Source of the DNA: Actinopolymorpha alba DSM 45243
Lineage (GTDB): Bacteria; Actinomycetota; Actinomycetes; Propionibacteriales; Actinopolymorphaceae
NCBI RefSeq assembly: GCF_000373925.1
Contig: NZ_KB892746.1
Coordinates: 186,001 to 250,000, forward strand
Length of the DNA: 64,000 bases
Direction: 5' to 3'
The notes below the pieces were generated by a model that had not been told where the DNA came from, ran no database searches, and was given only the letters and a program-made list of their open reading frames with translations. The position numbers were made by a program, and so were the translations under genes. Below, piece by piece: positions 28,490 to 44,256 of the stretch; positions within the stretch are counted from its first letter, which is position 1; every line of letters starts with the position of its first letter.

Positions 28490-31400
28490 ATGACCGGCCC
28501 CACGGCCAGGCGCGACCTCGTCCTCGGCGTGAGTCCGTGCGGAGAGCCCCAGGCACGCCTCGCCGCCGCGGTGAGCCGAGCTGGCGGGCTTGGTGTGCTG
28601 GACCTCGCGGGCGGTGACCGGCGGGCCCGCCGCGCGCTGGAGCTGACCGCGAGGTGGGCGCCGGGCGCGTTCGGCGTACGCGTGAGACCCGGGTGTGCCC
28701 TCGTCCCCGACGACCTCGAGCAGGCACTGGTGGGTACGTCCGCGCGGGTCGACACGGTGCTGCTTGGCGCGATCGTCGAGGAAAGTTCGCCATGGGACCC
28801 GGCGGCACTCGCCGGTCACTACCGCGTACTCGCCGAGGTGACCAGCAGGGACGAGGCGCTCGCGGCCGCGGCCGCCGGGGCGCACGGGCTGGTCGTCAGG
28901 GGCAACGAGAGCGGCGGCCGGGTCGGCGAACTCAGCTCGTTCGTCCTCCTCCAGCAGGTGCTGGCGCTGGAGCATCTGTCGCTTCCGGTGTGGGTGGCCG
29001 GCGGGATCGGCCTACGGACCGCGGCGGCCAGCGTCGTCGGCGGCGCGGCCGGCGTGGTCCTCGACTCCCAGCTCGCGCTGCTGGCCGAGTCCGAGCTCCC
29101 CGCGGACGTCGCCGCCGCGATCCACACGATGGACGGCTCGGAGACGGTCCTTGTCGACGGCCACCGTCTCCTTCCCAGGCGTGCCGGCGCGCGGACGCCG
29201 CGGTTGGACCCGCTGCCCGTCGGCCAGGACGGATTCCTCGCCGCGCGGTTCGCGGAGCGTTTCGGCGACGTGGGTACGACCGTACGCGCGGTCCGCGACG
29301 CGATCCTGGACGCGGCGCGGGACGCGGGTACGCCGCAGACGGCGCTGCGGCCCGGCTCGTCGTTCGCGACCGCGCACGGCATCGGCCTGCCGGTGGTGCA
29401 GGGGCCGATGACGAGGGTCAGTGACCAGCCCGGGTTCGCGGGTGCGGTGGCGGGTGCCGGCGGGCTGCCGTTCCTCGCCCTGGCACTGTCCGACGAGGCG
29501 TCGACGCGGGCGCTGCTGACCGAAACCCGGGCCGAGCTGGGCGAGCGACCCTGGGGGGTCGGCATCCTCGGCTTCGCTCCCGAGGAGACCAGGACCGCGC
29601 AACTACGCGTGATCGAGGAGGTCAGGCCGACCTGCGCCATCATCGCCGGCGGCCGTCCCGCGCAGGCGAAGGCGCTGGAGGACGCCGGCATCACGACGTA
29701 CCTCCACGTACCCTCACCCGGGCTGCTCGAGCAGTTCGTGCGGAGCGGTGCCCGGAAGTTCGTCTTCGAAGGATCAGAGTGCGGCGGCCACGTCGGGCCC
29801 CGGGCCAGCTTCCCGCTGTGGGAGGCCCAGCTGGGCGTTCTCGACGACTTCCTCGCCGGGGAACCTGACGCGGCGCAGGAGCTCCAGCTGCTGTTCGCGG
29901 GCGGCATTCACGACGCCCGCTCGGCCGCGATGGTCGCCACGATGGCGGCGCCGCTGGCCGCGCGTGGCGTGCGGGTGGGCGTCCTCATGGGCACTGCGTA
30001 CCTCTTCACCGCCGAAGCCGTGCGCTACGGCGCCATCCAGCCGGCGTTCCAGCAGCAGGTCCTCCAGGCCGAACGCACCGACCTGCTCGAGACCGCGCCC
30101 GGTCACGCGACCCGCGGCGTGGCCAGCGCCTTCACCGCGAGCTTCCAGCAACGCAAGGCCGAGTTGACGGCGGAAGGGCTGCCGGACCGGGAGGTCTGGG
30201 AACGACTCGAGCAGCTCAACGTCGGCCGGCTTCGGATCGCCAGCAAGGGCCTGCGCCGCGACGGTGCGACGCTCGTGCCAGTCGATCCGGACGGCCAGGT
30301 CACCGACGGGCTGTTCATGGCGGGCCAGGTGGCCGCCCTTCGTTCCGAGGTAACCGGTGTCAAGGACCTGCACCGCGCGGCCACCACCGGCGCGGCGGAG
30401 TTCCATGCCGCGCGGACGGAGCGGCTCCGCCGCGAGCTGCGGATCGAGGAGCCGGCCGCCGGCATCGAGCCGCCCCCGCCGGTCGACGTCGCGATCGTCG
30501 GCATGGCGTGCGTGTTCCCGCGCTCGCCCGACCTCGCGGACTTCTGGGCGACCGTGCTGAGCGGCGCCGACGCGGTGACGGAGGTCCCAGCGGACCGCTG
30601 GGACGTCGACACCTATTACGGCGAGTCCGGTGACCGCACGCCGTCGAAGTGGGGCGGCTTCCTCCCGCCGGTGCCGTTCGATCCGTTGGCGTACGGCATA
30701 CCTCCGGCGGCCCTGGCCAGCATCGAGCCCACCCAGCTCCTGGCCCTCGAGGTCGCCCGCCGGGCTTTGGCGGACGCGGGGTACGCCGGGCCCGGCCACC
30801 AGCACGACCGCACCTCCGTCGTCTTCGGCGCCGAAGCCGGCAGTGACCTCTCCAACGCCGGGGTGCTGCGTACCCTCCTGCCGGCGTACCTCGGCGAACT
30901 GCCCCCCGCCCTCGACGAGCAACTGCCCCGGCTCACCGAAGACTCGTTCCCCGGCGTCCTGGCCAACGTCATCGCCGGCCGGATCGCCAACCGGCTCGAC
31001 CTCGGCGGCGCCAACTACACCGTCGACGCGGCCTGCGCGTCATCGCTCGCCGCCGTCGACGTGGCCTGCAAGGAGCTGACGAACGGCACCAGTGACCTGG
31101 TGCTGTGCGGCGGCGCGGACCTGCACAACGGCATCAACGACTACCTGATGTTCTCGGCGGTGCATGCGCTGTCGCCGACCGGGCGGTCGCGGACGTTCGA
31201 CAGTACGGCGGACGGCATCGCGCTCGGCGAGGGCGTCGCGTGCGTCGTCCTCAAGCGGCTGGCCGACGCCGAACGCGACGGCGACCGGATCTACGCGGTG
31301 ATCAAGGGAGTCGGCAGCGCCAGCGACGGTAAGGCGCTGGGTCTGACCGCGCCCCGCCCCGACGGGCAGCGCCGGGCGCTGGAACGCGCGTACGCCAACG

Positions 31401-34400
31401 CCCGGATCGCGCCGTCGGAGGTCGGACTGGTCGAGGCGCACGGCACCGGGACCGTGGTCGGTGACCGTACCGAACTGCAGACGCTCACCGCGGTGTTCAC
31501 CGAGGCCGGTGCGGCGCCTGGCCGCTGTGCGCTGGGTTCGGTGAAGTCGCAGATCGGCCACACCAAGTGTGCGGCCGGACTCGCCGGGCTGATCAAGGCC
31601 GCGATGGCGGTGTACGCCGGGGTCAAGCCGCCGACCATCCACCTCGACAACCCCAACCCCGCCTGGGACTCCGACACCAGCCCGTTCGCGTTCCACACCG
31701 AGAGCCGGCCGTGGCCCGCGCCGCCTGCCGAGCGGATCGCGGGGGTGAGTGCGTTCGGCTTCGGGGGGACCAACTTCCACGTCGTCCTGCGCGCGTACGA
31801 CGGCGGGACCGAGCCGCGGCACGGACAGGCGACCTGGCCGGCGGAGCTGTTCTGCTTCCGGGGCGCCGACCGGCGGGCCGCGCATTCCGGTGTCCAGGCG
31901 CTGCTCGACCTCCTTGCCGCCAACGACGCCAGCGGGCGGCCCTGGCGGCTCCGGGATCTCGCGCACACCACCTCCCGACGTTTCGACGCGAGGGACGAGC
32001 GGGTCCAGGTCGCGGTGGTCGTGGATGACCTCGACCACCTGGCTGAGCTGCTGCGGCGGGCGCTGGCGGGCGAGCACGATCCGGTGGCGGGGTTGTTCCA
32101 GCCGCAGCCGCCGTCACCGGAGCACGGAGCCATCGAGGCGGCCGGCGAGGTCGCGTTCCTCTTTCCGGGCCAGGGCAGCCAGCGGCCGGGGATGCTGGCA
32201 GATCTCTTCGTGGCGTTCCCGGAACTCCAGCACTACCTGCGACTTCACCGCCGGGAGTGGGCCGACCTGCTGTATCCGCCGGCGGCGTTCGATCCCGAGC
32301 GGGCACGGGCGCAGGAGGATCGGGTCCGCGACACCCGGGTGGCGCAGCCGGTCCTCGGCATCACCGGGCTCGCCGTCGAGCACCTCCTCGACCGGCTTGG
32401 CGTACGCCCCGACCTGGCGGCCGGACACAGCTACGGCGAGCTGGTCGCGCTCTGCAGCGCCGGCGCCTTTGACCCGCGCACCCTGCTGACGCTGAGCGAG
32501 GAACGGGCCGGGGCCATCCTGGCAGCGGCCGGGGACGACCCGGGCGCGATGGCGGCGGTGTCGGCGACCCTCGACGAGGTGGTCGGCGTACTCCAGACCG
32601 CCGGCCTGTCCGGCGACGTCGTACCCGCCAACCAGAACGCGCCCCGGCAGGTGGTCGTGTCCGGGCCGACGGAGCGGGTCGAGGACGCCGTACGCGCGCT
32701 GCGCGACGCGGGCCTCGCCGCCAAGCGGATCCCGGTCGCGTGCGCGTTCCACAGCCCGGTGGTGGCTGGGGCGACGACGACCTTCGGCGCCGTCCTCGCG
32801 GACCTGCCGCTGCGGGCGCCGGAGATTCCGGTCTGGTCCAACCGCACGGCCGCGCCGTACGGCGCCTCGGTGGCCGACGTCCGGGCCGAACTCGCCGCCC
32901 AGGTCGGTGCGCCGGTGCGGTTCGTCGACCAGATCGAGGCGATGTACGCCAGCGGGGCCCGCGTCTTCGTCGAGGCGGGGCCAGGTCGCGTGCTCAGCCG
33001 GCTGGTGGACGCGATCCTCGGCGACCGGCCGCACGTGACGGTGGCCTTCGACGCTGTGTCGATCCAGCCCGTCACGGGTACCGCCCGTCCGGGCCCGCCC
33101 CCACCTCGCACGACCACGCGGCCGGGTACCGGCCTGCGGAGTTTCCTCGCCGGAGTCGCGCAGCTCGCGGTCGCCGGCGTTCCCCTGCGGACCGGCTGGC
33201 TCTTCGAGGGCCGCGACGCGCGCGACGTCAGCGGCCGGACGCCGCCCGCGCAGCCGGGCTGGACCGTGGACGGCCAGCTGGTGCGTACCCGCGACGGCGC
33301 CTACATCCCGGGTGGCCTGACCCCCGCACGACGTGTTCCGGAGGCGATGTTGACCAGACTCGATCCGATGGGTGCCGCTTCGACTGGTGCCGGTGTGCCG
33401 GGTGCCGGTGTTTCTGGTGCCGGTGTTTCTGGTGACCGGGACGCCCTGCTGGCGGAGTACCTCCGGACCAGCCGGGAGATGGTGGCGGCGCAGCGCGACG
33501 TGCTGCTCGCCTACCTTGGTACGCCGCCGGCCGGGCAGCTGGTCTGGCAACCCGGCCCGGGCACGGCGGCGACTTTGCCGGCGAACGGCGGAGTGGTCGC
33601 CGAAGCCGCGCCGGTCGTGCCGATGCCCACCGCATCGGCGCCAGCCGTACCCACTCCGGCAGCGGACGCGGAGCCGTCGGGTCACGAGACGTCACGTACG
33701 CCGGCATCGCCCGCGGCGGCCGCCGACCTGGCGGCGATGGTGCTCCAGATCATCAGCGAACGCACCGGCTATCCCACCGACATGATCGAGCTGGACCTCG
33801 ATCTGGAGGCGGACCTTTCGATCGACTCGATCAAGCGCACCGAGATCGCGGGCGAGATCGTCCTGCGGTTGGGCGCGGGCAACCAGCTGGCGGGCCAGCT
33901 CGACGACTCCGAGCTGGAGGACCTCGCCAAGGCACGCACGGCGCGAACGATCGCGGACTGGTTGACGAGCAGGTTCGAAACGCCCGAGTCCACCGGCGGA
34001 ACGCCGGAAGGCACGGAAGAGCTGCAGCCGGCTTCCGGCGTACCCCCGAAGCGCCTCGTACCCCAGCGGGTCGCACTCCAGGCGGCCTCGCTGCCGCCCG
34101 AGCAGACGCTGGCCGGCGCCGCCTTCACGGTGGTGGGCGGAGAGACCGCTGCCGCGGGCGAGGTGACCGCACTGCTCCAGTCGTACGGCGCGATCGTGCG
34201 GGGAGGGGACACGGAGCCGGTCGACGGGGTGATCCACCTCGGCGGACTGGTACCCACGGACGAGTGGCTGCTGCCCGAGCTCTTCGGCGACCTCCAGACG
34301 ACGCTGCGGCAGCCGCCGCGCTGGCTGCTCGCGGCGTCCGCCAGCGGGCTGGAGCGCCCGGCCGGGTTGCGCGGGTTGTTCCGCACGATCGCGCGGGAGT

Positions 34401-35476
34401 ACCCCCAGATCACGGCGAAGGCGGTCGAGGTCGACGCGTCGGCGCCGCCGACCGAGGTCGCCCGGATGCTGGTCGACGAGCTGCTCGCCGGCGACCAGGC
34501 GCCGGTGGTGGCCCGCGCGGGCGGCGCGAGGTACGGCTTCGAGCCGGTCGGGGCGGCGCTCGGCGGACTGGCCAGCACCGGAGCCGGCCCGGCCGGTGAC
34601 GGTACGGCGGAGGCCCAGGCGCTCGGCCTGGACCGCGACGCGGTGGTCGTGTTGTTCGGTGGCGCCCGGGGGATCACCGCACAGGTCGCGGCGGCGTTCG
34701 CGACGGCCAGCCGCTGCCGGCTCGAGCTCGTCGGTCGTACGCCACTACCGGCCGACGCCGAAGAACCCGAGCTGGCCGCCGCGACTGACCGGACCGCACT
34801 GCGGGCCGCGCTGATCGCCCGCGGCCTGCGGACACCGGCGGAGATCGAGCGCACCGCCGACCAGATCCTTGCCGGCCGGGAGGTCGCGGCCACCCTCGCC
34901 GAGCTCAGCACGCTAGGGAGCCGGGCGCGCTACCACGCGGTCGACGTCCGCGACAGTGAGGCCGTCCACCAGCTCATCAAGGAGATCCAGACCGAGCACG
35001 GCCGGCTGGACGGTGTCGTCTACGCGGCGGGTGTGATCGAGGATCGCCTGCTGGTGGAGAAGGACGCGGAGTCGTTCCGGCGGGTCTTCGGCACCAAGGT
35101 CGACGGCGCGCGCTCGGTGCTGGCCGCATTGGAGGAGCTGCCGAACCTGCCCGGGTTCGCGGTGCTGTTCGGCAGCATCGCCGGCGTTCTCGGCAACCGC
35201 GGGCAGTCAGACTACGCCGCGGCCAACGACGCGCTGGAGGTGCTGGGCGAGCAGTGGTCCGCACGGACCGGCGCGCGCTGCCTCACCGTGCACTGGGGAC
35301 CCTGGGCGCCGGCGGCCAGGCACAGCGGCATGGTCACGCCCGAGCTGCGGCAGGAGTACGCCCGGCGGGGGATCGAGCTGATCGACCCTGAGGAGGGCAC
35401 GCTGAGCCTGCTCCGCGAGCTGGCCTGGGGTGAGCCGTCCACCTCCGCCGTGGTCTACACCGCGTCGGGGTGGTGA
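28490..35476 (+). CDS. Multidomain lipid/polyketide synthase: NMO-NMO-KS-AT-ACP-KR
   Basis: This 2328-residue synthase resembles PfaA-like secondary-lipid synthases. Two nitronate-monooxygenase/PfaD-like flavin barrels lead. The first (about 1-260) is degenerate (Glu-Ser-Gly-Gly-Arg-Val-Gly). The second (about 298-640) keeps Glu-Cys-Gly-Gly-His-Val-Gly near 427, a likely enoyl reductase. Then comes a KS (about 665-1095) with Cys849, His984 and His1024. An AT (about 1215-1520) has Phe-Pro-Gly-Gln-Gly-Ser-Gln, Ser1314 and His1421. A single ACP has Ser1780 in Leu-Ser-Ile-Asp-Ser-Ile-Lys, the Pfa-type motif. A KR (about 2050-2328) has Gly-Gly-Ala-Arg-Gly-Ile-Thr, Ser2229 and Tyr2242. All domains look functional except the first barrel. 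The start is ATG 28490 behind GGAAGGAG. The next gene begins 3 nt after the stop. Confidence 0.9.
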   Translation: MTGPTARRDLVLGVSPCGEPQARLAAAVSRAGGLGVLDLAGGDRRARRALELTARWAPGAFGVRVRPGCALVPDDLEQALVGTSARVDTVLLGAIVEESSPWDPAALAGHYRVLAEVTSRDEALAAAAAGAHGLVVRGNESGGRVGELSSFVLLQQVLALEHLSLPVWVAGGIGLRTAAASVVGGAAGVVLDSQLALLAESELPADVAAAIHTMDGSETVLVDGHRLLPRRAGARTPRLDPLPVGQDGFLAARFAERFGDVGTTVRAVRDAILDAARDAGTPQTALRPGSSFATAHGIGLPVVQGPMTRVSDQPGFAGAVAGAGGLPFLALALSDEASTRALLTETRAELGERPWGVGILGFAPEETRTAQLRVIEEVRPTCAIIAGGRPAQAKALEDAGITTYLHVPSPGLLEQFVRSGARKFVFEGSECGGHVGPRASFPLWEAQLGVLDDFLAGEPDAAQELQLLFAGGIHDARSAAMVATMAAPLAARGVRVGVLMGTAYLFTAEAVRYGAIQPAFQQQVLQAERTDLLETAPGHATRGVASAFTASFQQRKAELTAEGLPDREVWERLEQLNVGRLRIASKGLRRDGATLVPVDPDGQVTDGLFMAGQVAALRSEVTGVKDLHRAATTGAAEFHAARTERLRRELRIEEPAAGIEPPPPVDVAIVGMACVFPRSPDLADFWATVLSGADAVTEVPADRWDVDTYYGESGDRTPSKWGGFLPPVPFDPLAYGIPPAALASIEPTQLLALEVARRALADAGYAGPGHQHDRTSVVFGAEAGSDLSNAGVLRTLLPAYLGELPPALDEQLPRLTEDSFPGVLANVIAGRIANRLDLGGANYTVDAACASSLAAVDVACKELTNGTSDLVLCGGADLHNGINDYLMFSAVHALSPTGRSRTFDSTADGIALGEGVACVVLKRLADAERDGDRIYAVIKGVGSASDGKALGLTAPRPDGQRRALERAYANARIAPSEVGLVEAHGTGTVVGDRTELQTLTAVFTEAGAAPGRCALGSVKSQIGHTKCAAGLAGLIKAAMAVYAGVKPPTIHLDNPNPAWDSDTSPFAFHTESRPWPAPPAERIAGVSAFGFGGTNFHVVLRAYDGGTEPRHGQATWPAELFCFRGADRRAAHSGVQALLDLLAANDASGRPWRLRDLAHTTSRRFDARDERVQVAVVVDDLDHLAELLRRALAGEHDPVAGLFQPQPPSPEHGAIEAAGEVAFLFPGQGSQRPGMLADLFVAFPELQHYLRLHRREWADLLYPPAAFDPERARAQEDRVRDTRVAQPVLGITGLAVEHLLDRLGVRPDLAAGHSYGELVALCSAGAFDPRTLLTLSEERAGAILAAAGDDPGAMAAVSATLDEVVGVLQTAGLSGDVVPANQNAPRQVVVSGPTERVEDAVRALRDAGLAAKRIPVACAFHSPVVAGATTTFGAVLADLPLRAPEIPVWSNRTAAPYGASVADVRAELAAQVGAPVRFVDQIEAMYASGARVFVEAGPGRVLSRLVDAILGDRPHVTVAFDAVSIQPVTGTARPGPPPPRTTTRPGTGLRSFLAGVAQLAVAGVPLRTGWLFEGRDARDVSGRTPPAQPGWTVDGQLVRTRDGAYIPGGLTPARRVPEAMLTRLDPMGAASTGAGVPGAGVSGAGVSGDRDALLAEYLRTSREMVAAQRDVLLAYLGTPPAGQLVWQPGPGTAATLPANGGVVAEAAPVVPMPTASAPAVPTPAADAEPSGHETSRTPASPAAAADLAAMVLQIISERTGYPTDMIELDLDLEADLSIDSIKRTEIAGEIVLRLGAGNQLAGQLDDSELEDLAKARTARTIADWLTSRFETPESTGGTPEGTEELQPASGVPPKRLVPQRVALQAASLPPEQTLAGAAFTVVGGETAAAGEVTALLQSYGAIVRGGDTEPVDGVIHLGGLVPTDEWLLPELFGDLQTTLRQPPRWLLAASASGLERPAGLRGLFRTIAREYPQITAKAVEVDASAPPTEVARMLVDELLAGDQAPVVARAGGARYGFEPVGAALGGLASTGAGPAGDGTAEAQALGLDRDAVVVLFGGARGITAQVAAAFATASRCRLELVGRTPLPADAEEPELAAATDRTALRAALIARGLRTPAEIERTADQILAGREVAATLAELSTLGSRARYHAVDVRDSEAVHQLIKEIQTEHGRLDGVVYAAGVIEDRLLVEKDAESFRRVFGTKVDGARSVLAALEELPNLPGFAVLFGSIAGVLGNRGQSDYAAANDALEVLGEQWSARTGARCLTVHWGPWAPAARHSGMVTPELRQEYARRGIELIDPEEGTLSLLRELAWGEPSTSAVVYTASGW
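33386..33430 (+). repeat. 15-nt tandem repeat x3 in synthase linker
   Basis: Three copies of GGTGCCGGTGTTTCT (the first varies) encode Gly-Ala-Gly-Val-Pro/Ser in the AT-ACP linker. In-frame copy changes would alter linker length without breaking domains. Confidence 0.85.
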
Positions 35477-35479
35477 GCC

Positions 35480-38400
35480 GTGCGGGAGCAGGTCGCGATC
35501 GTCGGCATGGCGGTGATGCTGCCGGGCGCGGCGGATCTGGACGCGTACTGGCGCAACCTCGTCGACGGTGTGGACGCCATCAGCGAGGTTCCGGCGCACC
35601 GCTGGGACGCCGGCTTCTACGACCCCGAGGCGGGGGAAGGCCGCGCTGACCGGGTGTACTGCCGGCGCGGCGGGTTCATCGACGAGTTCGCCGAGGTGGA
35701 CGCGGCCCGGTTCGGCATCATGCCCACGTCGGTGGCGGGCACCGAGCCGGACCAGCTGATCGCGCTGCGGGTCGCGGCGGCCGCGCTCGCTGACGCGGGC
35801 GGACCCGACCGGCTGCCCGCGCCCGACCGGATCGGCGTGGTCGTCGGCCGGGGCGGCTACCTGACGCCCGGGTTGGTACGCCTCGACCAGCGGGTCCGCA
35901 CCGCCAACCAGCTCGTACGGACACTGCGGGACCTCCTTCCCGACGTGGGCTCGGATCAGCTGGAGCGGGTACGCGAGGCGTTCACCGAGCAGCTCGGACC
36001 GCACCAGCCGGAGTCGGCGATCGGGCTCGTACCCAACCTCGCCGCGTCCCGGATCGCCAACCGGCTGGACCTGCGGGGTCCGGCGTACACCGTCGACGCC
36101 GCCTGCGCGTCCTCGCTGATCGCGGTCGACCACGCGGTCGCGGAGTTGGCCAGTGGCCGCTGCGACGTGGTGCTGGCGGGCGGCGTCCACCACTGCCACG
36201 ACATCACCTTGTGGAGCGTCTTCGCGCAGTTGCGGGCGTTGTCGCGCCGGGAACAGATCCGGCCGTTCGACCGGGCCGCGGACGGCATCCTCATCGGCGA
36301 GGGCACCGGCGTCGTGGTGCTCAAACGGCTCGCGGAGGCGGCCCGCGACGGCGACCGGATCTACGCGGTCATCCGGGGGACCGGGGTGGCGAGTGACGGC
36401 CGCAGCGCGAGCCTGTTCAATCCCGAACCCGCCGGGCAGGCGCGGGCAGTCAGGGCGGCGTGGGCGGCGGCCGGCCTGGATCCGGCTCAGCCCGGCTCGC
36501 TCGGGTTGCTGGAGGCCCACGGCACCGGCACTCCGGCCGGCGACACCGCCGAACTCGCCACGCTGGCCGACGTCTTCGGGCCGGCGAGCGCCGGGGAACG
36601 CGCGGTGATCGGTTCGGTCAAGTCGATGATCGGGCACACGATGCCGGCCGCGGGTGTGGCCGGACTGGTGAAGGCGGCGCTCGCCGTCCACCGAGGCGTC
36701 CTGCTGCCGACCCTGCACTGCGACGATCCCCATCCCGAGCTCAAGCGCACGCGGTTCCGCCCGATCAGCGCCGCGGAGCCCTGGACGACCGAGCATGGGC
36801 CGCGCCGCGCCGGCGTCAACGCGTTCGGCTTCGGCGGCATCAACGCCCACGTCGTGCTGGAGCAGGCGCCGGACGGCGACGGCACGTCCCGGTCGCGCGG
36901 CCGCCCGGTCGAGGTGGCCGAGGTGGTCGAGGTGGCCGAGCCGGAGCAGGTCCTGAGGTTCGCGGCGCCTGATCCGGCTTCGCTGGCCGAGGTTCTTTCG
37001 AAGGATGACGCCGAGGTGCGGGCGGCTGGGCTTCGCCATCCACACCACGCCACGCCCGGTTGCCGGCTCGGCATTGTCGATCCGACACCGAAGCGGCTCG
37101 CGCTGGCTCGGCGGGTGGTCGCCAAGGGGCAGGCGTGGCGGGGACGCAACGACGTGTGGTTCAGCCCGGCGCCGCTGCTCGGCGGCGATGGAGGCGCCCG
37201 GATCGCCTTCGTCTACCCGGGCCTCGAGGCCGACTTCTCCCCGCGGGTGGAGGACGTCGCCGCGATCTTCGGTACGCCGGGACGATCCGGTGACTCCAGC
37301 GACGTCGTGACCCGAGACGGCCGCTATGCCGCGACCAGCGTCGGCCGGCACGGCGTCGGCGTCGTCGAGGTGGGACGGCTGCTGGACCGCGCCCTTCGCG
37401 GCATCGGCATCCGGCCCGACCTGGTGGCCGGACACAGCGTCGGCGAGTGGACGGCGATGATCTGCTCGGGGCTGCAGTCGGGCGCGGCGGTCGATGAGTT
37501 TCTGGCGTCCTTCGACCCGGACTCGCTGCGGGTACCCGGACTGGTCTTCGCCGCCATCGGCGCTGGTGTCGACCGGGTCAGCGCCGCGCTGGCCGACCGG
37601 CCCGGCGTCGTACTCTCCCACGACAACGCGCCCAACCAGTCGATCGTCTGTGGCCCCGAGGCGGAGGTCGAGTCGCTGGTCCGCTGGTTCCGCCGCCAGA
37701 ACGTGCTGTGCCAGGTCCTGCCGTTCCGTAGCGGCTTCCACACGCCGATGCTCGCGCCCTACCTCGGCCCGATCGAGGCGGCGGTCGACGGCTTCGAACT
37801 CCATCGCCCGGAGGTCCCGGTGTGGTCGGCGACCACCACCGCGCCGTACCCCGAGGATCCGGCTGAGGTACGCGCGTTGTTCCTGCGGCATCTGCTGGAG
37901 CCCGTGCGTTTCCGGCCGATGATCGAGGGGATGTACGCCGCCGGCGCCCGGGTCTTCGTCCAGGTGGGCACCGGGCATCTGGCGTCGGTGATCAGTGACG
38001 TTCTGGCCGGACGTGACCATCTCGCCGTCCCGGTCAACGTCCCGCAGCGCACTGGTGTGGCCCAACTCCACCGGGTGGCCACCGCGCTGTGGGTGGAAGG
38101 CGGCGCCCCCGACCTTCGGCCGCTGCGGCCGGCGCCGGATCGGGGGGTCATGTCCTCGGAGAGCCGGACGAGGGCGGTACGCCTGGACCTCGGCGGTGCG
38201 CTGGTCTCGCTGGGCGACGGGGCGTCCGACCTGCTGGCTGGGGATGCGCCTGCAGAGAACGCGCCGGGCGGGAATCTACCTGCCGGTCGTACGCCGATGG
38301 CCCCGGATCGGCTTGCCCCGCTGGACCACCTCGCGGGCCGCCATCCGATCGCCGCCGAACTCGCGAACCTCCTGCGTGAGACGGCCTACAGCGCCGTCGC

Positions 38401-40129
38401 CGTTCTCGGAGCGGGTAGCGCGCGGTCCGCGCCCGTTCCCGCGGCTCCCCGCCGTCCCATGGAGACCGTTCTGACGGTCTCGACCGCGACCATGCCGTAC
38501 CTTCTCGACCATTGCTTCTTCCGCCAGCGTGCGGGGTGGCCCGACCTCACCGACAGGTTCCCGGTGGTACCGGCGACGACGGTGCTCCACCACCTGATGG
38601 CGGCCGCGGAGGAGTACCTCCCGGGTATGCGGGCGGTCGCGATCCACGACGCGCGGTTCCACCGCTGGGTGGTGGCCGAGCCGTCCGTCGACGTCCCGGT
38701 CACGGTCACGCCGGTCCCCACGTCAGGGCCCGAGGCGGCCGGCCCTACGGGTCCCGGACCTTCCGGCGTACGCCGGGTGCGGGCGGCGTTCGGCTCGTAC
38801 GCCCACGCCGTGATCGACCTCGCGCCGAGCCATCCACATGACCTGCCGGCTCCCTGGGCTCCGGATCCCGCGACCGAACGCGCCCCCGAGATCAGTGCCG
38901 CCCAGCTTTACACCGAGCGGTGGATGTTCCACGACCGGAAGTTCCAGGGCGTGGCCGAGATCCAGGTGATCGCCGACACCCACGTGCGCGGCGTCCTCAC
39001 CACGCCGTCAGCACCCGGCGCGCTGCTCGACAACGTGGGCCAGCTGCTCGGCTACTGGATCATGGCGACCCACTCGACCCGCAAGGTCGTGTTCCCGGTA
39101 CGGATGGGACGCATAAGGTTCTTCGGCCCCCACCCACCCGCCGCCACGCGACTCGACTGCGTCATCCGGATCCGGTCGGTCACCGAGACCGAGCTCGTCG
39201 CCGACGCCCAGCTGATCCTCGGCGGCCGGGTGTGGGCGGCGTTCGACGGCTGGGTCGACCGGAGGTTCGACAGCCATCCCGAGACGCTCGGCGTGGAGCG
39301 GTTCCCCGAGCGCACGACGCTGGCCCGTCGCCAGCCGGGGGACTGGTGCGTGGTCTTCGAACGCTGGCCCGACCTGGCCTCCCGCGATCTGTTCACCCGC
39401 AAGCTGCTCAGTGCCGGCGAGCGCGCCGAGCTGGAACGCTGCCCGCCCCGAGGGCGGCGGCAGTGGCTGCTCGGGCGGTTCGCGGTCAAGGACGCCGTCC
39501 GCACCCTGCTGTGGGACGAGGGCGCCGGGCCGATCTTCCCCGCCGAGGTGCGGGTTTCCAACGACGAGACCGGTCGGCCACACGTCGCCGGCCTGCACGG
39601 CCGGGACCTTGGCGACCTCGACGTCTCGCTCGCCCACTGCGCCGAGGTGGGGGTGGCGCTCGTCCGCCGCTGCGAGGACGCGTCCAGCCCTGGTGTCGGC
39701 ATTGACGTCGAGCAGATCGTCGACCGGACGGCGGCGACCCATGCCGTCGCCCTCGGGCCCGCCGAGTCGGCGCTGCTGGCCCAGGTGTGCGCGGACTCGA
39801 CCGAGCCGGAACGCGTGTGGTTCACCAGGTTCTGGGCCGCGAAGGAGGCGGTGTCCAAGGCGGAGGGCACCGGGTTGCGTGGTCGCCCGCGGCGGTTCGC
39901 GGTGGTGTCGGCCACGGAGGACGCGCTTGCGGTCGCGGTGGAACCAGTGGAACCAGTGGAGCCGATGGAGCCGATGGAGCCGGCGAGCGGCCCGGAGCGG
40001 CCCGGGCAACGCCGGATCTACCCGGTCAGGTGTGCCCGGATCGCCAATCCCGATGACCTACCCGAACGGCAGTACGTCGTCGCCTGGACCGAAGGCCCGA
40101 CGACCGAGAAGCACAGCAGGCAGGAGTAA
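35480..40129 (+). CDS. Multidomain lipid/polyketide synthase: KS-AT-DH-PPTase
   Basis: This 1549-residue partner of the upstream synthase begins with a KS (about 1-455) with a complete Cys209-His347-His386 triad, so it is not a chain-length-factor-type KS. An AT (about 560-880) has Gly-His-Ser653-Val-Gly-Glu and His754, but the usual Gly-Gln-Gly start motif is replaced by Pro-Gly-Leu-Glu-Ala. A double-hotdog DH follows at about 990-1270, with His1011 in Leu-Leu-Asp-His-Cys and a later Leu-Leu-Asp-Asn-Val-Gly-Gln. The C-terminus (about 1300-1549) is a 4'-phosphopantetheinyl transferase with Gly-Ile-Asp1409-Val-Glu and Trp-Ala-Ala-Lys1455-Glu-Ala. This fused transferase can activate the ACPs of this pathway. 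The start is GTG 35480. Short Glu-Val/Glu-Pro repeats lie at linkers (about 36907-36945 and 39946-39980). Confidence 0.9.
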   Translation: MREQVAIVGMAVMLPGAADLDAYWRNLVDGVDAISEVPAHRWDAGFYDPEAGEGRADRVYCRRGGFIDEFAEVDAARFGIMPTSVAGTEPDQLIALRVAAAALADAGGPDRLPAPDRIGVVVGRGGYLTPGLVRLDQRVRTANQLVRTLRDLLPDVGSDQLERVREAFTEQLGPHQPESAIGLVPNLAASRIANRLDLRGPAYTVDAACASSLIAVDHAVAELASGRCDVVLAGGVHHCHDITLWSVFAQLRALSRREQIRPFDRAADGILIGEGTGVVVLKRLAEAARDGDRIYAVIRGTGVASDGRSASLFNPEPAGQARAVRAAWAAAGLDPAQPGSLGLLEAHGTGTPAGDTAELATLADVFGPASAGERAVIGSVKSMIGHTMPAAGVAGLVKAALAVHRGVLLPTLHCDDPHPELKRTRFRPISAAEPWTTEHGPRRAGVNAFGFGGINAHVVLEQAPDGDGTSRSRGRPVEVAEVVEVAEPEQVLRFAAPDPASLAEVLSKDDAEVRAAGLRHPHHATPGCRLGIVDPTPKRLALARRVVAKGQAWRGRNDVWFSPAPLLGGDGGARIAFVYPGLEADFSPRVEDVAAIFGTPGRSGDSSDVVTRDGRYAATSVGRHGVGVVEVGRLLDRALRGIGIRPDLVAGHSVGEWTAMICSGLQSGAAVDEFLASFDPDSLRVPGLVFAAIGAGVDRVSAALADRPGVVLSHDNAPNQSIVCGPEAEVESLVRWFRRQNVLCQVLPFRSGFHTPMLAPYLGPIEAAVDGFELHRPEVPVWSATTTAPYPEDPAEVRALFLRHLLEPVRFRPMIEGMYAAGARVFVQVGTGHLASVISDVLAGRDHLAVPVNVPQRTGVAQLHRVATALWVEGGAPDLRPLRPAPDRGVMSSESRTRAVRLDLGGALVSLGDGASDLLAGDAPAENAPGGNLPAGRTPMAPDRLAPLDHLAGRHPIAAELANLLRETAYSAVAVLGAGSARSAPVPAAPRRPMETVLTVSTATMPYLLDHCFFRQRAGWPDLTDRFPVVPATTVLHHLMAAAEEYLPGMRAVAIHDARFHRWVVAEPSVDVPVTVTPVPTSGPEAAGPTGPGPSGVRRVRAAFGSYAHAVIDLAPSHPHDLPAPWAPDPATERAPEISAAQLYTERWMFHDRKFQGVAEIQVIADTHVRGVLTTPSAPGALLDNVGQLLGYWIMATHSTRKVVFPVRMGRIRFFGPHPPAATRLDCVIRIRSVTETELVADAQLILGGRVWAAFDGWVDRRFDSHPETLGVERFPERTTLARRQPGDWCVVFERWPDLASRDLFTRKLLSAGERAELERCPPRGRRQWLLGRFAVKDAVRTLLWDEGAGPIFPAEVRVSNDETGRPHVAGLHGRDLGDLDVSLAHCAEVGVALVRRCEDASSPGVGIDVEQIVDRTAATHAVALGPAESALLAQVCADSTEPERVWFTRFWAAKEAVSKAEGTGLRGRPRRFAVVSATEDALAVAVEPVEPVEPMEPMEPASGPERPGQRRIYPVRCARIANPDDLPERQYVVAWTEGPTTEKHSRQE

Positions 40130-40135
40130 GGACGC

Positions 40136-40459
40136 GTGAACGTCAGCATCGAGGAAGCGACGCCCAAGGTGGTCTTCGAGGAGATCACCCGCATGCTCCG
40201 CAAGGTTCTCGCGGAGTACGACGTGGACGACCTGGAGATCACCCGCACGAGTACGTTCCAGGGTGACCTGGAGATGGAGAGCATCGACCTGGTGACTCTC
40301 GCGGGGGAGTTGGAGCAGCGGTACGGCCGCCGGGTGAACTTCGCGGAGTTCATCGCCGACCTCGACCTCGAGCAGATCATCGCGTTGAACGTCGGCAGCC
40401 TCGTCGACTACGTCGCCGTGTCCCTGAACTCCGGGTCCGACCAGCCAGCGGGGGGCTGA
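40136..40459 (+). CDS. Stand-alone acyl carrier protein
   Basis: This 107-residue acidic protein has an ACP four-helix pattern and the phosphopantetheine site Asp-Leu-Glu-Met-Glu-Ser-Ile-Asp-Leu-Val (Ser about 46). It differs from the in-cis ACP of the big synthase, so it may accept the finished chain or deliver a starter. The GTG start at 40136 follows AGGAGTAAGGA, only 6 nt after the upstream stop, and the hydrolase gene begins 3 nt after its own stop. This spacing places it firmly in the operon. Confidence 0.9.
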   Translation: MNVSIEEATPKVVFEEITRMLRKVLAEYDVDDLEITRTSTFQGDLEMESIDLVTLAGELEQRYGRRVNFAEFIADLDLEQIIALNVGSLVDYVAVSLNSGSDQPAGG

Positions 40460-40462
40460 GCG

Positions 40463-41281
40463 GTGAAGATCCTCGCCAACGGGATCTCCCAGCACGTACA
40501 GACGATGGCGCCACCTGGCCGGACGTTCGGCGAGGCGCCGGCGACGCTGGTCTGCCTGCACGGCATCGGCACCGACAGCCTGGCGAGTTTCTACTTCACC
40601 CTCGCGAAGCCCTTCGCCGACGCCGGGCTCGACGTCGTGATGTACGACCTGCGCGGGCATGGCCGGTCCGACCGCCCGCCAGCCGGCTACCGCCTGGACA
40701 ACTTCGTCGCCGACCTGTCCGGGCTGCTGGACGCCCTCGGAATCGAGGGCCCGGTGCACCTGATCGGGAACTCCTTCGGCGGCACCGTCGCATTCACGTT
40801 CGCGGCCAGGTATCCGGACCGGGTGGCGGGACTGGTGGTCATCGAGTCCGAGCCGCCGGGCGAGACCTGGCCGGTGAAGATGGCCGGCAACCTGCTGCGT
40901 GCCACGGCGCAACTCGGGTCCGACGAGGCGAACACCTGGATCGCCGAGCGCCACGGCGCCCACACCGCCCGGCTCGCGCGGTCGGCGGCGAAGATGCTGC
41001 ACTCCACCACGGTCGCCTGGGAGGTGCCGACCAGCCGGCTCCTCTCGCCGCGGCAGGTCGCTTCGCTCACCTGCCCGGTGCTGGCGTTGTACGGCGAACG
41101 GTCCGACCTGGCCGCCCAGGCGCCCTGGCTTGAGAGCGTGCTGCCCGGCTGTTCGACGGTGGTCATCCCCGACCAGGCGCATTCGGTGCTGGTCGAGGTG
41201 CCCGACACCGTGCTCGACGTCGTACTCCCGTGGATCGGCGACCGGACTCCAGCGCTCGCTGCCGGAGCCGGCGCGAGGTGA
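40463..41281 (+). CDS. Alpha/beta hydrolase (possible chain-release thioesterase)
   Basis: This 272-residue alpha/beta hydrolase has an oxyanion His-Gly motif (Cys-Leu-His-Gly-Ile-Gly), a nucleophile elbow Gly-Asn-Ser-Phe-Gly-Gly (Ser near 102), an acid in Leu-Tyr-Gly-Glu-Arg-Ser-Asp and a final His in Gln-Ala-His-Ser-Val. The gene lies between the ACP and the glycosyltransferase and overlaps the latter by GTGA. It may release the acyl chain from ACP or transfer it. A simple esterase role cannot be excluded. No signal peptide is present, so it is cytoplasmic with the synthases. The start is GTG at 40463. Confidence 0.85.
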   Translation: MKILANGISQHVQTMAPPGRTFGEAPATLVCLHGIGTDSLASFYFTLAKPFADAGLDVVMYDLRGHGRSDRPPAGYRLDNFVADLSGLLDALGIEGPVHLIGNSFGGTVAFTFAARYPDRVAGLVVIESEPPGETWPVKMAGNLLRATAQLGSDEANTWIAERHGAHTARLARSAAKMLHSTTVAWEVPTSRLLSPRQVASLTCPVLALYGERSDLAAQAPWLESVLPGCSTVVIPDQAHSVLVEVPDTVLDVVLPWIGDRTPALAAGAGAR

Positions 41282-42600
41282 GTAGGTTCCTCTTCGTGGT
41301 GCCGCCGCTGGCGGGCCACGTCAACCCCACGGTCGGTGTCGCCGCGCGGCTTGTCGAACTCGGGCACGAGGTCGCCTGGGCCGGAAGTCCTGAGGTCGTA
41401 CGCCAGTTGGTGGGACCCGACGCTCTGGTCTTCGCCTGCGCGCTGCCGCCCCTCGACGGCACCCACGCCGGCCGGCCGCCCGACCTGCGCGGGGTCGCGG
41501 CGCTGCGGTTCCTGTGGGAGCGCTTCCTGATCCCGTTGGGCGACGCGATGGTTCCGGGCGTCCGCGCGGCGGTTGACGCGTTCGCACCGGACGTCCTGGT
41601 CGTGGACCAGCAGGCCCTCGCCGGCGCGGCGGTGGGTGCCGCGCTCGGAATCCCGTGGGCCACCTCCGCGACGACGTCCGCCGAACTCGCCGGCCCGCTT
41701 GCCGACATGCCGAAGGTCGGGTCCTGGTTGGCCGCGCTGCTCGCGGAGTTCGGTGCACGGCACGGCGTTCCGGCCGGACATGATCCGAGGTTCTCCCCGC
41801 ACCTGGTGCTGGCGTTCAGTACGCGTGAGCTGGTCGGGGAGATCCGGCTGGAGGCCTTGGGCGCGGGGCCTTCGCTTCCTGGCGTACTCCGCTTCGTCGG
41901 TCCGTCGATCGCGCCCCGGCCGGAAGCCGACGACGGCGAGTTTCCGTGGTCGTGGCTCGCGTCGCCGTGTGGTTCCGGCCCCGGTCGGGCCTCGCCCGTC
42001 CGGGCCCACCCGCAGTGTGGTTCCGGCCCCGGTCGGGCTTCGCCCTTCCGGGCCCACCCCCACCCGGACCCGGTGATCCTGGTGACCCTCGGGACGGTGA
42101 ACGCGGACGTCGGCGTGAGGTTCCTGGACGCGTGCCTGCGGGCACTGAGGGAGCGGCCGGGACTGCGGGCCGTCGTCGTCGATCCGACCGGCGGAGTCGA
42201 CGGTGCGCCGCCGAACGTGCTTCTTGTGCGGCGGGTTCCGCAACTCGCCCTGCTCCCGCACGTCGAGGCCGTCGTCTGCCACGCGGGCCACAACACGGTC
42301 TGTGAGTCGCTGTTCCACGGCCTGCCGCTGGTGGTCGCGCCGATCCGGGACGACCAGCCGGTGATCGCCCAGCAGGTCGTCGACGCCGGCGCTGGTATCC
42401 GGCTGCGGTTTGGCCGGGCGACGTCCGACCACCTCGGCCGGGCGATCGACGAGGTGCTCGGGCAACCCGGCTACCGCGTGGGCGCGCGACGGGTGCGGGA
42501 GTCGTTCAGGACCGCTGGCGGTGCGTCCGCGGCCGCTGATCACCTGGTGGCGCTCGCCCGCCGGGGCTCCGACAGAAAACCGAACCCGGTTTGTTTTTGA
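41278..42600 (+). CDS. MGT-type GT-B glycosyltransferase
   Basis: This 440-residue UDP-glycosyltransferase of the macrolide/glycolipid (MGT, GT1) type starts Arg-Phe-Leu-Phe-Val-Val-Pro-Pro-Leu-Ala-Gly-His-Val-Asn-Pro. It ends with the donor-binding signature Val-Cys-His-Ala-Gly-His-Asn-Thr-Val-Cys-Glu-Ser-Leu, then Asp-Asp-Gln-Pro-Val-Ile-Ala-Gln. The start GTG at 41278 overlaps the hydrolase stop. The protein likely attaches a sugar to the lipid made by the upstream synthases. Between the two Rossmann domains is a 32-residue in-frame tandem repeat (about 231-262) that is foreign to the family. The two halves look otherwise intact, so the enzyme is probably active. Confidence 0.88.
   Translation: MSRFLFVVPPLAGHVNPTVGVAARLVELGHEVAWAGSPEVVRQLVGPDALVFACALPPLDGTHAGRPPDLRGVAALRFLWERFLIPLGDAMVPGVRAAVDAFAPDVLVVDQQALAGAAVGAALGIPWATSATTSAELAGPLADMPKVGSWLAALLAEFGARHGVPAGHDPRFSPHLVLAFSTRELVGEIRLEALGAGPSLPGVLRFVGPSIAPRPEADDGEFPWSWLASPCGSGPGRASPVRAHPQCGSGPGRASPFRAHPHPDPVILVTLGTVNADVGVRFLDACLRALRERPGLRAVVVDPTGGVDGAPPNVLLVRRVPQLALLPHVEAVVCHAGHNTVCESLFHGLPLVVAPIRDDQPVIAQQVVDAGAGIRLRFGRATSDHLGRAIDEVLGQPGYRVGARRVRESFRTAGGASAAADHLVALARRGSDRKPNPVCF
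41967..42062 (+). repeat. 48-nt tandem repeat inside the glycosyltransferase gene
   Basis: Two 48-nt copies (41967-42014 and 42015-42062) differ at only a few bases. Each encodes 16 residues beginning Cys-Gly-Ser-Gly-Pro-Gly-Arg-Ala-Ser-Pro. Each contains a GC-rich hairpin (GGGCCTCGCCC / GGGCTTCGCCC). It looks like a small palindromic repeat that inserted in frame in an inter-domain linker. Confidence 0.85.
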
Positions 42601-42625: not shown

Positions 42626-43243
42626 GTGGCCGGACTCAGAGAGCGCAAGAAGCAGCAGACGCGGCAGGCGATCGCCGAGGCGGCGATGCGCCTCTTCGCC
42701 GAACGCGGCTTCGAGTCCGTGACCGTCAACGAGATCGCCGAGGCGGCAGGGGTCGCCAAAGTCACGCTGTTCACCTACTTCCCGACCAAGGACTCCTTGG
42801 TGCTGCACGCGGTAGCCGACGATGACGTGCCGAAGGTCGTGGCCGAGCGGCAGCCGGGGCAGTCGCCGCTCGACGCGCTGCGTGCGCACTATCGAGCGTT
42901 CGCGGCCGAACCCGGCGATGTCGAACCCGAGGCATTGATCGCGATGATGCAGGTCATCACCGAGAGCCCGACGCTGGTCGCGGGCGTCAACCGGATCCAG
43001 TACGGCGAGCGGCTCGCGCTCGCGCAGGCTCTCACTGGCTCGACCGAGTGCCAGGTGGACGACCTGACCGCCTCCCTGATGGCCGCACAGATCTCGGCCG
43101 CCGTCCTGGCCCTCAAGGAGGCGTTCTTCAACCGCCTGGCCTCGGGCATGCCGCTGCCGGAAGCGGGCCGTCGGCTCGTGGAGGACATCGAGCTCGCCTT
43201 CGACCTACTGGAACGCGGGTTCGGTGACCGGTTCACCCGCTGA
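42626..43243 (+). CDS. TetR-family transcriptional regulator
   Basis: This 205-residue regulator has an N-terminal TetR helix-turn-helix at about 8-55: Gln-Ala-Ile-Ala-Glu-Ala-Ala-Met-Arg-Leu-Phe-Ala-Glu-Arg-Gly-Phe, then Val-Thr-Val-Asn-Glu-Ile-Ala-Glu-Ala-Ala-Gly-Val and Thr-Leu-Phe-Thr-Tyr-Phe-Pro-Thr-Lys. The ligand domain is of the type common in actinomycetes (Val-Pro-Lys-Val-Val-Ala-Glu-Arg). The start GTG at 42626 is close to the end of the glycosyltransferase gene, with symmetric repeats in between. It could control itself, the downstream TIM-barrel gene, or the lipid operon. The sequence supports the first best. Confidence 0.9.
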   Translation: MAGLRERKKQQTRQAIAEAAMRLFAERGFESVTVNEIAEAAGVAKVTLFTYFPTKDSLVLHAVADDDVPKVVAERQPGQSPLDALRAHYRAFAAEPGDVEPEALIAMMQVITESPTLVAGVNRIQYGERLALAQALTGSTECQVDDLTASLMAAQISAAVLALKEAFFNRLASGMPLPEAGRRLVEDIELAFDLLERGFGDRFTR

Positions 43244-43311: not shown

Positions 43312-44256
43312 ATGCGCGCGAGAGGAATCAACTACGACACCGGCTTCTACCCCGGCGGCAGCAGCTCCCGTGAGGTGTTCGACCCAGAGGTGGTGCGCCG
43401 CGAGTTGCGGGTCATCGCCGATGAACTGCACTGCACCGCCGTACGCGTCTCCGGTGGTGACCCCGACCGGCTCAGCATCGCCGCCGAGCACGCCGCCGCG
43501 GCGGGTCTGGAGGTGTGGTTCGCGCCCTTCCCCTGCGAGCTGACCACCGAGGAGATGCTGCCGTACTTCGCCGAGTGCGCAGAGCGTGCGGAAAACCTCC
43601 GCCGGTCGGGAGCCGAGGTCGTCTACGTCATGGGCTGTGAGGCCAGCGGCTTCGCGAAAGGGTTCCTGCGCGGTGAGACGCTCATGGACCGGATGGACAC
43701 GCTGATGTCCTACGGCGCATCCGGGGACTGGTCGGAGCTCGGGCCGATGCTGGAGCGGCTGAACGCCTTCCTCGCCGAGTCGGCGGCGGGCGCGCGGAAG
43801 CGGTTCGGTGGGCGGATCACCTACGCCTCGGCGCCGTGGGAGTTCCTTGACTGGAGCCCGTTCGACCTCGTAGGCGTGGACGCCTACCGTGCCGACCACA
43901 ACGCCACCCACTTCCGCGAGGAGATCCGCGCGCACACCAAGCACGGCAAGCCGGTCGCGGTCACCGAGTTCGGCACCTGCGCCTACCAGGGGGCGGGGCG
44001 GCGCGGCGGGATGGCCTGGACCGTTCCTGACGGCGCCGTACGCGACGAAGGCGAGCAGGTCCGCTACTTCACCGAACTCCTCGACGTCTTCGAAGAGGAG
44101 GGCATCGACAGCGCGTTCTGGTTCACGTTCGCGGGATACGCGCGGCCGGGCGACCGCGACCTGGGTTCCTACGGCGTGGTCAGGATGCTCGATGACACCA
44201 GGTGGGAGCCGAAGGAGGTCTTCCACACCATGGCGGCGAGGTACGCGCGCGGGTGA
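43312..44256 (+). CDS. TIM-barrel glycosidase-like protein of unknown specificity
   Basis: This 314-residue soluble protein has a clan-A glycosidase-like pattern: an Arg-Gly-Ile-Asn-Tyr-Asp-Thr-Gly start, Val-Met-Gly-Cys-Glu110-Ala-Ser-Gly near the strand-4 position, Phe-Asp-Leu-Val-Gly-Val-Asp-Ala-Tyr and Val-Ala-Val-Thr-Glu219-Phe-Gly near the strand-7 position. Later come Phe-Trp-Phe-Thr-Phe-Ala-Gly-Tyr. Glu110 and Glu219 are candidate catalytic residues. No signal peptide is seen. The ATG at 43312 follows AAGGAG. I recall relatives loosely labelled as abortive-infection proteins, but nothing here supports that. Being next to a TetR gene and a glycosyltransferase, it may act on the cluster's glycolipid. 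Confidence 0.6.
   Translation: MRARGINYDTGFYPGGSSSREVFDPEVVRRELRVIADELHCTAVRVSGGDPDRLSIAAEHAAAAGLEVWFAPFPCELTTEEMLPYFAECAERAENLRRSGAEVVYVMGCEASGFAKGFLRGETLMDRMDTLMSYGASGDWSELGPMLERLNAFLAESAAGARKRFGGRITYASAPWEFLDWSPFDLVGVDAYRADHNATHFREEIRAHTKHGKPVAVTEFGTCAYQGAGRRGGMAWTVPDGAVRDEGEQVRYFTELLDVFEEEGIDSAFWFTFAGYARPGDRDLGSYGVVRMLDDTRWEPKEVFHTMAARYARG

Follow-up and report, generated by a model that had tools for sequence, protein, structure and literature searches.

A compact five-gene operon occupies positions 28490–42600 on the forward strand of a 64,000-nucleotide (nt) stretch of the Actinopolymorpha alba DSM 45243 genome (contig NZ_KB892746.1, positions 186,001 to 250,000; hereafter the window), and its content marks it as a candidate pathway to a glycolipid. 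Gene A (28490–35476; 2328 aa), whose ATG start at 28490 is preceded by an AAGGAG ribosome-binding site, encodes two tandem nitronate monooxygenase-like domains (NMO1 and NMO2), a ketosynthase (KS1), an acyltransferase (AT1), an acyl carrier protein (ACP) and a ketoreductase (KR). Gene B (35480–40129; 1549 aa) encodes KS2, AT2, a predicted double-hotdog dehydratase (DH) and a C-terminal phosphopantetheinyl transferase (PPTase). They are followed by a free ACP with an ESID motif (40136–40459; 107 aa), an alpha/beta hydrolase predicted to be a discrete thioesterase or a lactonising release enzyme (40463–41281; 272 aa), and a GT1/MGT-type glycosyltransferase (GT; 41278–42600; 440 aa) that starts with GTG and shares 4 nt with the hydrolase gene. 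The list of open reading frames gave gaps of +3, +6, +3 and -4 nt, in agreement with the -4 to +6 nt spacing noted in an earlier reading of the window from its letters alone (the sequence-only reading).

Pfam searches recovered NMO (two stretches), KS, AT, ACP and KR in A, and KS, AT and an ACPS-type PPTase in B, and likewise bore out the free ACP, the hydrolase and the GT of that reading. The phosphopantetheine-binding match of the ACP in A fell just under the Pfam cut-off, and its DSIK motif is present. The DH of B had no Pfam match; the motifs DHCFF...PVVP and LLDNVGQ, together with a structure model of residues 869–1549 (mean pLDDT = 78.2) whose top matches were polyketide synthase (PKS) dehydratases, a MAS-like PKS DH first, identify it as a putative dehydratase. 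Motifs are complete in KS1, KS2, AT1, AT2, both ACPs, KR, DH, NMO2, PPTase, hydrolase and GT, except that one DH sub-motif, kept as FHGPxFQG by close relatives, has become FHDRKFQG in the window (B residues ~1150–1157, near 38927–38950). Across the aligned homologues (rows L037, L038 and L045 of the B alignment, garbled by frame problems, were ignored), Cys-His-His is kept in KS1 and KS2, Ser and His in AT1 and AT2, DSIK in the ACP of A and ESID or a close form in the free ACP, and the KR, PPTase and GT motifs are mostly retained. The hydrolase likewise keeps its nucleophile Ser (GNSFGG) and His, with one replacement of Ser by Cys, GNCFGG, in L036 (15406–16272). Both ATs carry an xxFH motif, which suggests that they are malonyl-type rather than methylmalonyl-type.

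The sequence-only reading had listed two NMO domains in A; the alignment did not support two working enoyl reductase (ER) domains. In thraustochytrid polyunsaturated fatty acid (PUFA) synthases, ER domains are marked by motif I (APMxG-like, with a flavin-mononucleotide-contacting Met) and motif III (xEAGGH, with the catalytic His) (PMC13311796). NMO2 has QGPM and ECGGH in every homologue that covers it (ESGGH in two). NMO1, in every homologue that covers it, lacks the Met of motif I and has Arg, Pro, Ser, Val or Trp at the His position of motif III, which rules out two working ER domains. A model of the NMO1–NMO2 region (mean pLDDT = 77.5) matched FabK/NMO folds. Because the catalytic His is kept in NMO2 only, A is, judged by its motifs, a protein with one enoyl reductase (NMO2) and a conserved pseudo-domain (NMO1), the latter possibly an intramolecular partner of the former. 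A conserved tandem of pseudo-ER and ER is a structural oddity.

The order A-B-ACP-hydrolase-GT recurs in 42 loci, which are samples rather than censuses: the window, 16 loci found by tblastn with the five proteins, two plasmids, and 23 of 25 further neighbourhoods from a class-level scan of 148 genomes. Because the same order recurs in 42 loci it is not due to chance. Hosts of the tblastn loci, in a few of which the contig begins within A or B, include Streptomyces, Kitasatospora, Amycolatopsis kentuckyensis, Actinokineospora spheciospongiae, a metagenome-assembled genome (MAG) of the Myxococcales and other genomes of the order. On the Streptomyces plasmids NZ_CP108492.1 and NZ_CP108735.1 the five genes and an S-adenosylmethionine (SAM) methyltransferase lie amid unrelated genes and insertion sequence elements. 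The contig scan used single-protein patterns and was not exhaustive. Of the two incomplete class-level neighbourhoods, L124 has no GT, and L126 reaches the contig end, the missing part being found on another contig; G280, G233 and G291 have the full set. Across 11 loci, the pairwise distances of one cassette protein track those of the others (correlations of 0.86–0.96). In the KS tree, KS1 and KS2 sequences fall into two distinct clades that run in parallel, and the loci of G280, G233 and G291 belong to these same clades. The cassette moves as a unit among many soil actinobacteria; it is widespread in this group and also plasmid-borne, with synthase hits in 24 of the 148 class genomes and a GT match in 20.

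Some loci depart from this pattern. Four divergent synthases (L051, L052, L054 and L055) are without the GT; in L051 (12385–15394) and L052 (3851–5975) an ACP-like stretch and a hydrolase are followed by an ABC transporter instead, and in L052 the hydrolase and ABC reading frames are fused. The contig of L043 ends too early for the presence of a GT to be judged. In the cassette of the Myxococcales MAG, the alpha/beta hydrolase gene is present as two copies in tandem (L044, 11645–13181).

The sequence-only reading held that the glycolipid idea would fail if homologues lacked the ACP, hydrolase and GT, or if the GT were kept with other partners. When the GT was searched alone (close relative defined as E ≤ 1e-30), it matched in 7 of 197 genomes at the level of the order, all seven within a cassette, among 11 genomes with synthase hits. 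At the level of the class, all 20 GT-bearing genomes were among the 24 with synthase hits, and in 19 of them the GT lay inside the cassette; the four genomes with a synthase only carry distant synthases (36–43% identity). Fisher tests gave p ~4e-21 (class) and ~2e-10 (order), values not corrected for shared ancestry. A GT conserved with other partners is therefore rejected at both levels, except for one diverged copy in G286, and the glycolipid idea withstands the refuting conditions set for it.

In the window genome the operon is an insertion. In five genomes of the same genus and two of the same family, the genes hadA-hadB-murB-(APH)-adenosine deaminase-aminotransferase adjoin or nearly so, without the operon; in the window, a block of ~16 kb separates the APH and deaminase genes. 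Beside the operon the block holds a TetR-family regulator gene (42650–43243, + strand, start approximate; assigned by Pfam) and a gene for a 314-aa protein without Pfam match (43312–44256, + strand), both absent at the same site in related genomes. No integrase was seen. A terminator-like hairpin with a T-tract at the 3' end of the GT coding sequence (42577–42592, + strand) could mark the operon end; it is a weak candidate, since the region holds five sites of this kind where 3.6 would be expected. G+C content is 73.0% in the operon and 67.7% elsewhere in the window, and the synthase is absent from every same-family genome examined; the insertion site, the G+C, this absence and the plasmid copies together point to horizontal acquisition.

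Many cassettes continue with a PF13489 methyltransferase bearing an N-terminal zinc-ribbon-like stretch, in one to four copies; relatives in Streptomyces and Kitasatospora and the plasmids have one. Three or four tandem methyltransferases follow the GT in L116 (1297–4564), L118 (14219–18562), L120 (307–4605) and L127 (3–2697), all from one actinobacterial family, which suggests that a single product is methylated several times. In L132, L130, L128 and L123 the methyltransferase 3' of the GT is fused behind an N-terminal region of ~300 aa with a hydrophobic start and no Pfam match. An ABC exporter accompanies the cassettes L114 and L117. The window cassette has neither a methyltransferase nor an ABC exporter; in relatives, these genes would fit a product that is decorated and exported. 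The surroundings of the cassette contain no genes of a sugar pathway, even in the plasmid copies, and because no dedicated sugar-nucleotide genes travel with it, the sugar donor is likely a housekeeping one.

The GT scored above the cut-offs of PF06722 and PF00201 and has the donor-site motif (HAGHNT) of GT1/MGT enzymes; against TIGR01426 it reached 161 bits (cut-off 260). GT1 enzymes are established as lipid glycosyltransferases in rhamnolipid-type pathways, as RhlB homologues (PMC8171317). At 41963–42059 the window gene carries a 48-bp tandem duplication (93% match) that yields a repeated low-complexity stretch, CGSGPGRASPxRAHP, between the GT-B halves; owing to it the protein is ~50 aa longer than its relatives, and its function in the window strain could be affected.

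Taken together, we consider it quite likely that the cassette is a mobile, self-contained pathway in which an iterative synthase makes a long-chain hydroxyacyl group that is glycosylated and released as a secreted or envelope glycolipid. The proposal of the sequence-only reading that a self-contained Pfa-like iterative synthase is joined to release and glycosylation is thereby supported. A and B would together form the synthase: AT1 and AT2 would load acyl and extender units, KS1 and KS2 condense them, KR reduce, DH dehydrate, and NMO2 reduce the enoyl group, NMO1 playing a structural role as its partner. Both carrier proteins, the one within A and the free one, would be activated by the PPTase of B. 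The last cycle would leave the chain as a (beta-)hydroxyacyl group. From gene content and co-occurrence we infer the steps after chain assembly, and with them the substrate, the step order, the role of the free ACP and the product: the chain would be handed to the free ACP, the GT would add a sugar from the housekeeping nucleotide-sugar pool to a hydroxyl, and the hydrolase would free the product by hydrolysis or lactone formation. The product is probably a sugar-bearing long-chain lipid.

Several points weigh against this assignment. The nearest relatives of the GT with solved structures in the PDB act on antibiotics and similar small molecules, not on lipids. In G286 no GT adjoins the synthase genes; one with 39–46% identity lies elsewhere, beside an ABC transporter. 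The FHDRKFQG change may make the DH weaker in the window strain, and DH or ER might be skipped, leaving a polyhydroxylated, polyene or saturated chain.

The first of these considerations, with the PKS-like KS and AT domains, the modelling of the DH onto PKS dehydratases and the resemblance of the hydrolase to antibiotic-pathway or small-molecule enzymes, would also suit a glycosylated polyketide or polyene antibiotic, made by a synthase that stops early or keeps double bonds and by an MGT acting as in macrolide or polyene pathways. However, the intact FabK-type ER is invariant and would be needless for a polyene maker, A and B both score best against the PfaA model, albeit below its cut-off, and the cassette has no conserved companion genes for deoxysugars, regulation or resistance; we regard such a product as unlikely. 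The GT could instead serve self-protection by inactivating what the synthase makes, in the manner of OleI/Mgt with macrolides, in which case the true end product would be an unglycosylated lipid or polyketide. Its MGT-family matches do include the OleI/Mgt self-immunity models, but none of these reaches its cut-off, the GT gene overlaps that of the hydrolase by 4 nt and is present in 41 other cassettes, tandem methyltransferases follow it in many of them, and no partner glycosidase was seen, so that we judge this role distinctly improbable. That the synthase is a conventional one for PUFAs or secondary fatty acids and feeds membrane phospholipid, with ACP, hydrolase and GT incidental, is scarcely credible: the PfaA-family similarity and the discussion of related clusters (Types L and M, below) as fatty acid makers (PMC3098273) are outweighed by the conserved order and co-occurrence of ACP, hydrolase and GT and by the correlated divergence of the five proteins.

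Within the glycolipid interpretation, a more specific identity can be entertained as a tentative and rather doubtful possibility, namely that cassettes of this family hold the missing biosynthetic genes for the macro-oligolactone glycolipids of actinomycetes (glucolipsin, fattiviracin, cycloviracin and related compounds). In these, long-chain hydroxy acids carry glucose and are closed through sugar-ester bonds; they come from Streptomyces, Nocardia, Kibdelosporangium (now Allokutzneria) and Pseudonocardiaceae (PMC4365757); the parts list of the cassette fits such hydroxy acid glucosides. No gene cluster for glucolipsin, fattiviracin or cycloviracin was found in the literature searched. The synthase would supply the hydroxy acid, the GT would add glucose to its hydroxyl, the hydrolase would dimerise the product and close the ring, and the extra methyltransferases of some relatives would O-methylate the sugars, as in cycloviracin, whose sugars are O-methylated. 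Glucolipsin A (C50H92O14) was dereplicated by formula in a coculture of Actinokineospora spheciospongiae EG49 with a Rhodococcus, whereas neither partner grown alone had it on record (PMC7918646). The cassette is present in EG49 (L045), which is a weak independent hint, the match being one of formula rather than an identification and the producer being possibly either partner. Against the idea, the 2-methyl branch of glucolipsin would have to come from a further methylation step or from a methylmalonyl unit, and the AT motifs do not favour the latter. If the idea is true, glycolipids that act against viruses or activate glucokinase would be traced to their genes.

Among the related systems, a canonical PUFA synthase is rejected: against TIGR02813 (PfaA; cut-off 1010.1 bits) A and B score 894.8 and 481.5 bits, both below; instead of tandem multiple ACPs there is one in A and one free; and where PfaC pairs a KS with a chain length factor (CLF), B contains a single KS, its Cys-His-His complete, and lacks a CLF. 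Thraustochytrid PUFA synthases also combine two ER domains of the FabK-like TIM-barrel kind, ERb and ERc, but both keep the catalytic His and sit on different proteins (PMC13311796), whereas the two of A lie in tandem and the His is gone from the first. Pfa-like synthases were sorted into Types A–T by Shulse and Allen in 2011 (PMC3098273). The heterocyst glycolipid (Hgl) synthases of Type F are likewise Pfa-related iterative synthases that feed a glycolipid; in Type F, however, HglC is KS-CLF-AT and dehydratase/isomerase (DH/I) is missing, and here a DH is present and the CLF is not. SCO0124-0129, the Streptomyces coelicolor 'EPA' cluster to which the sequence-only reading had related the locus, is a Pfa-like cluster with an unproven product and belongs to Type L, with a separate 5' pfaD and a KS-CLF-DH2-AT protein. 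The analogy is rejected on this published architecture, since here the ER is fused in A, no CLF occurs, and one DH and then the PPTase are fused to B. By the published text only, the uncharacterised Type M of Frankia, Actinosynnema, Renibacterium and S. avermitilis would fit better, as an actinobacterial Pfa-like synthase to which that text assigns no product; ACP, hydrolase, GT and methyltransferase do not figure in the description it gives of the type. The Frankia literature searched for a link to the vesicle envelope did not contain the cassette genes. A Pfa-like synthase family catalogued since 2011 without a product probably comes with a fixed release-and-glycosylation kit, which makes a glycolipid a concrete product prediction and the cassette one expressible five-gene unit.

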